A DNA stretch of 37,657 bases, from positions 1 to 37,657 of the forward strand of contig QQSB01000034.1 in assembly GCA_003602515.1 (NCBI GenBank). Reading direction: 5' to 3'. Made by a program: the position numbers and the translations under genes. Each line of letters starts with the position of its first letter. The first letter of the stretch is position 1. This document shows, piece after piece, positions 30,559 to 33,735 of this stretch. The notes under the pieces were generated by a model. The model ran no database searches and had not been told where the DNA came from. It was given only the letters and a program-made list of their open reading frames with translations. The DNA comes from Candidatus Poseidoniales archaeon (lineage in GTDB: Archaea; Thermoplasmatota; Poseidoniia; Poseidoniales; Thalassarchaeaceae).

Positions 30559-31572
30559 TTGGCCTATGGAGTAAGAGGGTTCAGTGTGGCGATTGCTCAG
30601 GGTGGTGGTTCTAGCTCAAAGGACCTCATTAGATCGGTCTCTGGGCATGCTAACAATCTCATGAGCGAGGTTGCCAAGGTCATTATTGGTAAGCCGGAAA
30701 ATATCCGAAAGGTGGCAATTGGAATACTGGCCAATGGTAACATCCTGATTGAAGACAATCCGGGCCTGGCAAAGACTCTGATGTCGAATACTTTCGCTGA
30801 AGCACTCGGTTGCAAGTTCAAGAGAGTGCAGTTCACCCCTGACCTGCTTCCCGCGGATATAATCGGGACCTACATGTATGACCAGAAGACTGGAGAGTTC
30901 AGGCCTAGGTTCGGCCCTCTATTCACCAACATACTTCTAGCAGACGAGATTAACAGAGCCCCTCCGAAGACTCAGGCTGCTCTCCTCGAGGCTATGGAAG
31001 AGAAGCAAGTAACAATTGAGGGGATTACACACAAACTCCCTGCACCATTCGTAACGATGGCAACTCAGAACCCAATTGAGCAGGAGGGGACCTATCCCCT
31101 TCCCGAGGCACAAATGGATAGATTCCTCATGAAGATGAGCATGGGATACCCATCGATGGACGAAGAGAAGGCGATACTGCAGAGAAGGAAGCTGCGAGGA
31201 AAAGACAACTACGATGTTGAACAGATTGTCGAGCCTCGAAAGGTTGTGGCGATGCAGAAGGCCCTGGAGACCGTTCACATCGATCCAGGCATCCTAGGGT
31301 ACATCGTACAAGTCGTCCAGAGAACTAGGGCAGATCCAAGAATAGAGGCAGGGGCCTCACCAAGGGCTAGCCAGGGCCTTTTCAAAGCATCAAGGGCGTC
31401 TGCCGCAATCGATGGGAGGGACTACGTGATCCCTGATGACGTGAAAGGGGTCGCTCTGGATGTGGTCAGCCATAGGATTGTCCTCAAGCCCGAGTCCAAG
31501 ATTAGAGGGGTTACTGGAAGGAGGGTCGTGAACAAGATCCTCAGTGAAGTTCAGGTCCCGGTAATACAGTAA
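30559..31572 (+). CDS. MoxR-family AAA+ ATPase
   Basis: LIEDNPGLAKTLMSNTFAEALGCKFKRVQFTPDLLPADIIGTYMYD...LLADEINRAPPKTQAALLEAMEEKQVT...FVTMATQNPIEQEGTYPLPEAQMDRF; TTG start or a later start codon. Confidence 0.95.
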   Translation: MAYGVRGFSVAIAQGGGSSSKDLIRSVSGHANNLMSEVAKVIIGKPENIRKVAIGILANGNILIEDNPGLAKTLMSNTFAEALGCKFKRVQFTPDLLPADIIGTYMYDQKTGEFRPRFGPLFTNILLADEINRAPPKTQAALLEAMEEKQVTIEGITHKLPAPFVTMATQNPIEQEGTYPLPEAQMDRFLMKMSMGYPSMDEEKAILQRRKLRGKDNYDVEQIVEPRKVVAMQKALETVHIDPGILGYIVQVVQRTRADPRIEAGASPRASQGLFKASRASAAIDGRDYVIPDDVKGVALDVVSHRIVLKPESKIRGVTGRRVVNKILSEVQVPVIQ

Positions 31573-31610: not shown

Positions 31611-32513
31611 GTGGCAGTAGTGATAGCCTGCGTGAATCACAAAGGCGGATGTTCTCGGACGACCACTGCAGTGAACCTGGCCTCATCTCTGGCAATGGGG
31701 AGCGAGGATTACGGGATACGAAGCAGGAAGGTTCTGCTTGTTGACATGGACCCGAAGGGAAACGTGGCAACGACCTTCGGTGTTGACAAGAGGAGCGTGG
31801 GGCCGACAATGAATGAGTTGTTCGCTCGGGGTGTGGACGATGAGTCTCTGAAACTGGAGGATTGCATACTTGGTCCGGATCTACTCTCAAGATCGATGAA
31901 GGCTGCTTGGAGGAAGAACAACCCGGAGAAGTCCAGGGGACCCCCCAAGCACATTGGAATCAGAAACTTGTGGATTCTACCAGCGGATCTGGATCTTTCT
32001 GGAATCGAAGTGGACCTAGCGACGAGGGTCGGCAGGGAAAATAGGCTAAAGCTCGCCCTCTCCGAGGCATTAGGTAATTTCGATGTGATCATTATCGACA
32101 CTCCTGCATCCCTGGGGCTGCTCACAGTAAATTCTCTGTGCGCGGCAGACTGGCTACTGATTCCCATTCAAGCGGAGTTCTATGCCTTAGAAGGAATGAG
32201 CCAGCTAATCTCCTCAATAAGGGAGGTTCAGAGGTCAGTGAATCCGGGTCTGGGCCTTTTGGGAATCCTGATGACCATGGTACAATCAAGAAGTAAGTTA
32301 TGCGAAACTGTTACCGAGCATGCTCGAAAGCACTTCGGGGACAGAGTCTTTGAATCGCAGATTCCAAGATCGGTAGCCATAGCAGAATCACCTCTGGAAG
32401 GTGCTCCGATAGTAATTGCACAGAAGCCAAACAAGTCAAACCGTGCTAGTCAATCATACTGGGAGTTTGCAAGAGAGGCAGATGGTAGAATCAGAGCGAT
32501 TACTGAATTATAG
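31611..32513 (+). CDS. ParA/Soj-like ATPase with altered P-loop
   Basis: GTG start; VNHKGGCSRTTTAVNLASSLA, KVLLVDMDPKGNVATTFGV, NFDVIIIDTPASLGLLTVNSLCAADWLLIPIQAEFYALEG. Confidence 0.93.
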   Translation: MAVVIACVNHKGGCSRTTTAVNLASSLAMGSEDYGIRSRKVLLVDMDPKGNVATTFGVDKRSVGPTMNELFARGVDDESLKLEDCILGPDLLSRSMKAAWRKNNPEKSRGPPKHIGIRNLWILPADLDLSGIEVDLATRVGRENRLKLALSEALGNFDVIIIDTPASLGLLTVNSLCAADWLLIPIQAEFYALEGMSQLISSIREVQRSVNPGLGLLGILMTMVQSRSKLCETVTEHARKHFGDRVFESQIPRSVAIAESPLEGAPIVIAQKPNKSNRASQSYWEFAREADGRIRAITEL

Positions 32514-32517
32514 TCCA

Positions 32518-33735
32518 CTAGGAGCCGGATTGCTCCATCACTCTGTGCCTTGCGTCAAGAAGAGCAGTTTCCATCTTTAGCCGGATTTCCGATTCCATGG
32601 TCTTGAGCATCTCCCTGATGTCCTTCTTCGACATGTCTCCCCTCTTCGACATCTGCTTCTCTAGGTTTGACATCATCTCGGACTCCCTCTGCTTGACGAA
32701 ATCGGCAACTCTCTGCTCCATCTCGACCTCTCTCTCCAGGGCTAGTTCTTGTCTTCTGAGCCCGAGTGCTGCCTCCATACTCTCCTTCTCCGCCCTAAAC
32801 CTCCGGTCTAGATCGCCAATGGCGGCTCTCTCGGATTCCTCCTGAAGTGCCTTTGTCCTGACACTGATGTCTGATTTCAGTTCCTTCTCTAGAGACTCTC
32901 TCTCACTCTCAAGCTGCTTCTCCATCTTGGTCTCATATTTTCGCCTCTTCTTGGCAATGCTATCTCTCATTTTTATTTCCTGCTCTAGTCTAAATGCCTC
33001 AGACTTGCGATGGACCTCGGACTCCATTGCCTCTCGGAGATCCATCTCGACCCTTCTTTCCATTCTCTCCATCCCCTGGTTGGCCTCCAACTCAAGCCTC
33101 TCCTCGAGGAATGCTTTCCTTCGAGTGAACTCAACCTCCATTTCCTCTCTGAGTCTTTCTCTAGTCCTAGACGAATGGGCCTCTGTCCTCCTATCCCTCT
33201 CTAGGTCGAGTTGGTCGCGAAGTCTGTTTTCCTCCCTGCGAAGGCGATGTAGCATTTCTTCTCTGAGAAGTCTCTCTTCTCTCTCCAATGATTCCTTCTC
33301 CAACCTCTCAAGCTCATCCTCCAGCTCGTCTCTGAGGTCTGCCTCAATCTGCTGTAATTGCTCTTCGAATAGAATCTCGTTGGCCTTCCTCATTGCACCT
33401 TGCATCCCTGAGACTCTCTCTGTCATCTCAGAAATTCTCATTCTTCGTTCTCTCCTGATTCCAGATCGAAGTGTTGACTCCTCATCCAGCCTTTCTCGAG
33501 CTCTAGCTGCTGCTCCCATTGCTGTCGAGGATAGTGCGTGCTCTGCCCTCAGAGCATCTAGTTCATCCAAACTCTCTGACTCGGTAGAGTCTGCCGACTT
33601 GCTCTCACTCACGTGCCCATCCCCAATTCGACGCCCTTTTCGGGGTATTTGAGACAAGAGGGTCGGAAATAGTGAGAAATGGCGGTTTCTAACCACTATC
33701 GGATTCTCGGAACTAGAATGTGACGAAGAAGTCAT
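32518..33735 (-). CDS. Long Arg/Glu-rich coiled-coil protein of unknown function
   Basis: 405 aa, highly charged continuous heptad-like sequence (LRDELEDELERLEKESLEREERLLREEMLHRLRREENRLRDQLDLERDRR...); start may be GTG 33612 rather than 33735. Confidence 0.8.
   Translation of the reverse strand: MTSSSHSSSENPIVVRNRHFSLFPTLLSQIPRKGRRIGDGHVSESKSADSTESESLDELDALRAEHALSSTAMGAAARARERLDEESTLRSGIRRERRMRISEMTERVSGMQGAMRKANEILFEEQLQQIEADLRDELEDELERLEKESLEREERLLREEMLHRLRREENRLRDQLDLERDRRTEAHSSRTRERLREEMEVEFTRRKAFLEERLELEANQGMERMERRVEMDLREAMESEVHRKSEAFRLEQEIKMRDSIAKKRRKYETKMEKQLESERESLEKELKSDISVRTKALQEESERAAIGDLDRRFRAEKESMEAALGLRRQELALEREVEMEQRVADFVKQRESEMMSNLEKQMSKRGDMSKKDIREMLKTMESEIRLKMETALLDARHRVMEQSGS

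Follow-up and report, generated by a model that had tools for sequence, protein, structure and literature searches.

In every ortholog found in one genus of marine archaea, the catalytic P-loop lysine of a core chromosomal, Soj-type ParA ATPase is replaced by arginine (R16). The gene lies in a stretch of 37,657 nucleotides, here called the window, that forms contig QQSB01000034.1; the contig belongs to a draft genome (1.36 Mb, 76% complete) from the Poseidoniales (Marine Group II). This lysine is the residue that is routinely mutated to break ParA, and here a lineage has fixed the classic dead K-to-R exchange, with silent codon turnover and with Lys-bearing sisters in the same gene order. The K16R change looks independent of other known cases and is fixed in the genus; it does not mark a new kind of protein, having precedents in BcsQ and in the curated family NF047398. 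By analogy with engineered mutants, we judge the chances to be about even that the protein is a naturally fixed, hydrolysis-impaired ParA that stays clamped on the nucleoid in a long-lived ATP state. If this is true, a switch that normally cycles may have become naturally fixed in a slow or locked form in abundant marine archaea, and the R16 lineage would provide a natural experiment showing whether hydrolysis is needed in ParA-type switches.

Sequence and fold of the ParA homolog

The original prediction had recognized a ParA/Soj-like ATPase, and this is borne out by the Pfam AAA_31 profile (6.9e-43; 147 bits against a cut-off of 27), by the best PDB sequence matches (8ray ParA, 9.9e-49; 1wcv Soj, 1.2e-40) and by the predicted fold, since the best Foldseek matches to an AlphaFold model (pLDDT 86, pTM 0.90) were Soj (9a6n) and ParA-ATP (8ray), with E values of 1e-20 to 1e-23 for Soj/ParA. 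Re-reading of the sequence returned the P-loop codons originally described, aaa ggc gga tgt tct cgg acg for K-G-G-C-S-R-T, within the longer motif N-H-K11-G-G-C-S15-R16-T-T-T. Ortholog alignment agreed that G15 and K16 are both replaced while the signature lysine and the other motifs are kept. Residue numbering matches that of B. subtilis Soj, which makes the two replacements G15S and K16R.

The signature lysine K11, the aspartate pair of Walker A' and the Walker B aspartate are all present (Table 1), and K11, T17, D45, D47 and D163 do not vary within the R16 clade over 2.7 substitutions per site of tree. R227, which corresponds to a DNA-binding Arg position of Soj, is similarly constant; in PRNVR, a motif with a conserved DNA-binding Arg, the second Arg is replaced by A/S256 in R16 proteins, as it is in many K16 relatives. 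The motif element that is absent is the catalytic P-loop lysine (GK[ST]), with R16 in 26 of 26 orthologs of the genus. The window protein is a ParA homolog by descent, fold and profile, and not a canonical member by motif. Only positions 16, 34, 46, 72 and 140 fully separate R16 from K16 proteins.

Table 1. Features of the ParA locus, with two further genes of the same genome; positions refer to the window unless another locus is given.
Feature	Position	Strand	Remarks
MoxR AAA+ ATPase	30559..31572	+	Directly upstream of ParA; linkage kept across the order
ParA/Soj-type ATPase ORF	31611..32513	+	300 aa, GTG start; profile, PDB sequence match, fold match
Deviant Walker A, K11-G-G-C-S15-R16-T17	31641..31661	+	S15 codon tct 31653-31655; R16 codon cgg 31656-31658
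Walker A', D45-M46-D47	31743..31751	+	Both Asp invariant; M46 specific to R16 clade
Insert, residues 85-116	31863..31958	+	Predicted helix 89-103; missing in bacterial outgroup ParAs
Walker B Asp, D163	32097..32099	+	Invariant
R227	32289..32291	+	26/26 in R16 clade
Charged coiled-coil-like protein	32518..33735	-	405 aa; convergent with ParA; conserved neighbour in closer lineages
Second ParA	L083:1300-2262		KGGVGKTTT; N-terminal extension
Weak ParB_N-like ORF	L084:853-1263	-	136 aa; sole ParB-fold match in the genome

Distribution and history of the substitution

Eighty loci were fetched, with relatives named Candidatus Thalassarchaeum or Marine Group II euryarchaeote, and R16 was present in all of the closest relatives among them. 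In an alignment of 79 proteins, 26 rows had R16; the remaining 43 Poseidoniales rows and the 10 outgroup rows all had K16. A scan of 293 genomes of the order, nearly all of them drafts, for the exact pattern N-[QH]-K-G-G-x-x-R-T-T found it in 26 of 28 members of the window's genus, and none of the 265 genomes from 21 other genera had it. The ortholog was undetectable in the two remaining members of the genus, both incomplete assemblies. A matching Lys pattern occurred in 111 of 119 sampled genomes from other genera of the family, so that the absence of R16 outside the genus does not reflect absence of the gene family. None of 293 genomes sampled from the phylum as a whole contained NQKGGxxRTT, and a search for K-to-R ParAs in viral contigs gave four pattern matches in short frames of 24-75 aa, none of them a ParA.

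The original prediction had allowed that the altered motif might be private, a single-strain variant or a sequencing error. Twenty-six distinct orthologs in many independent assemblies, with five different Arg codons, exclude both a private variant and an error of sequencing or assembly, the likelihood of which we consider negligible. Fixation, which an alignment of orthologs was expected to settle, held for R16 (26/26); at position 15 the change to Ala or Ser extends beyond the genus. Judged from these sequences, K-to-R is the one change peculiar to the genus, and G15 to S/A is common to most of the Lys-bearing relatives.

On a maximum-likelihood tree built without P-loop columns 14-16, R16 required one change in one clade (support 87/74; a single clade in 90% of bootstrap trees), and position 15 changed nine times on the same tree. 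P-loops of other genera read KGGCGKTTT, KGGC[A/S]KTTT or KGGTAKTTT, and rarely KGGVGKTTT; because of these, the replacement of G15 by Ala or Ser is not genus-specific, and it probably came before K16R. R16 is encoded in the genus by AGA (10), AGG (7), CGG (4), CGA (4) or CGT (1), corresponding on the tree to at least six silent changes across AGR and CGN and no replacements. Early-branching members carry AGA, a single transition from the Lys codon AAA, which implies that Lys-to-Arg was one step (AAR to AGR) and that AGR codons have always been one step from reversal. Pairwise dN/dS was 0.03-0.12 in the R16 clade and 0.02-0.07 in K16 relatives; the substitution pattern indicates that the R16 gene is functional and under purifying selection.

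Genomic context

The gene order NDK-aIF5B-MoxR-ParA recurs in Poseidoniales loci long enough to judge, R16 or K16 alike, and this conserved block marks the gene as part of the chromosomal core, not of a mobile element. Most genomes of the genus also encode a second ParA at a separate site, and those copies that were read have the canonical KGGVGKTTT. The second ParA occurs across the family; two genomes sampled from the other family (G002 and G004) showed the MoxR-linked ParA only.

No ParB is adjacent to the R16 gene or was found in the 76%-complete genome, in which the best ParB_N match reached 22 bits, below the cut-off of 26.3. The ORF concerned (Table 1) presumably resembles SerK, judged by eye, and this single weak match was rejected as a ParB partner. 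The ParB component of a ParABS partition system was not found in this genome. A search for a link to defence systems gave only a partial match of 17 bits.

Relation to known ATPases

The fold and motifs of the window protein resemble those of Soj/ParA ATPases, with 34-37% identity in the fold comparison to T. thermophilus Soj (1wcv/2bek), 8ray ParA and B. subtilis Soj. It shares with them the signature lysine, Walker A' and Walker B, and differs in S/A15, R16, the insert at residues 85-116, the MoxR neighbour and the lack of a ParB in the searches described above.

The original prediction also called the phosphate-binding lysine invariant, which was an overstatement; neither P-loop position is strictly invariant in the superfamily. 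SopA has Tyr at position 15 and BcsQ has Thr at position 16 (PMC9178275), and NF047398, the NCBIfam 'KGGVGR-motif variant AAA ATPase', is a curated ParA/MinD-like group named for Arg at the position of the catalytic lysine. The window protein lies outside NF047398, scoring 29.1 bits against a cut-off of 90 with its best stretch at residues 4-47; none of 30 relatives exceeded the cut-off, and canonical paralogs scored as high as the window protein. This low score, matched by canonical paralogs, makes the R16 of the window look like an independent case. Searching the literature for 'KGGVGR' turned up no paper.

BcsQ, which functions in cellulose secretion, has RGGVGTT (PMC9178275). Like the window protein it is related to ParA/MinD and has no catalytic lysine in its natural form, and an ATP-bound complex has been deposited (6ybb); unlike it, BcsQ has Thr in place of Arg and has also lost the signature lysine. 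McdA, another ParA relative in which a P-loop lysine is naturally altered, is the mirror image of the window protein, its SGGQGKT having lost the signature lysine and kept the catalytic one (PMC9178275).

Functional interpretation

The identical Lys-to-Arg exchange at the catalytic lysine has been engineered in V. cholerae ParA2 (K124R) and P1 ParA (K122R). The former is devoid of ATPase activity, shows weaker MANT-ATP binding than the wild type, retains a wild-type-like DNA affinity and forms immobile foci, and the latter anchors partition complexes irreversibly (PMC10287910). In P1 ParA, K122Q binds ATP but the DNA-binding state is not formed, and K122E does not bind ATP (PMC2950902). The engineered K-to-R changes stop partition dynamics (PMC10287910), whereas R16 is natural, fixed and under purifying selection.

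Given the published behaviour of K-to-R mutants, an ATP-binding, hydrolysis-impaired ParA is the best inference for the window protein. The catalytic P-loop lysine of a core chromosomal ParA would have been replaced once and thereafter retained as arginine; Arg16 may still contact the nucleotide phosphates, making Mg-ATP binding possible, and the retained residues would probably preserve dimerisation and DNA binding, with hydrolysis abolished or strongly slowed. The product would be a long-lived ATP-state clamp on the nucleoid and not a cycling motor; where a cycling ParA is needed, the second, canonical copy could serve. That the whole genus uses an ATP-locked core ParA, which binds ATP and DNA without hydrolysis and is static and nucleoid-bound instead of cycling, is a broader claim that we advance tentatively, at somewhat less than even weight. 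Several points count against the hydrolysis-impaired reading: the mutant data stem from ParAs only distantly related to the window protein and with no Ala or Ser reported at position 15, A/S256 stands at a conserved DNA-binding Arg, and the 76%-complete genome yielded no ParB.

The main rival is that the enzyme remains active and cycles normally, A/S15, M46 and other clade-specific residues having allowed Arg16 to replace lysine. The equivalent of D47 is needed for hydrolysis in other ParAs, and the invariance of D47, along with every other motif, fits retained hydrolysis; the fit is a weak one, because the R16 clade shows no variation at 153 of 300 columns. Compensation is also consistent with a dN/dS about as low as that of K16 relatives, and with the coincident separation of the clades at positions 34, 46, 72 and 140, among which M46 sits between the Walker A' aspartates. 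Yet A/S15 is present in many K16 proteins, hence it is no specific compensation, and in V. cholerae ParA2 the K-to-R change abolished ATPase activity (PMC10287910). We consider a compensated, active ATPase unlikely, while still giving it appreciable weight.

Loss of nucleotide binding altogether, leaving a pseudo-ATPase scaffold that acts by protein or DNA contacts alone, is improbable. Two P-loop positions are altered together and AlphaFold confidence is low at residues 12-15, as such a scaffold might lead one to expect, but P-loop confidence is similarly low in a K16 control model (mean for block 11-20 of 65, against 61 in the R16 model). The scaffold is further at odds with the invariance of the five motif residues K11, T17, D45, D47 and D163, and with the residual ATP binding of the ParA2 mutant (PMC10287910). 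More improbable still is a mixed dimer in which the R16 protein, with its slow site, pairs with the active canonical ParA. The presence of KGGVGKTTT copies in most genomes of the genus would permit this; however, the two proteins share only about 34-40% identity, their loci are far apart, and in other genera both ParAs are present and both have lysine.

Further observations at the locus

Most MoxR-linked ParAs of the order have Ala or Ser before the catalytic lysine (KGGC[A/S]KTTT), which is itself an unusual P-loop. The P-loop of the adjacent MoxR reads GLAKT, with Ala before Lys, a substitution at the equivalent position. The coiled-coil-like protein convergent with ParA has no match in Pfam, NCBIfam or PADLOC; it is conserved in the order, and in the other family its matches fall mostly inside larger open frames of about 850 aa. 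The Poseidoniales block NDK-aIF5B-MoxR-ParA is also borne by contig L063, which is titled Deltaproteobacteria (AH-558-G13) but probably represents archaeal DNA, the assembly being either wrongly labelled or mixed.
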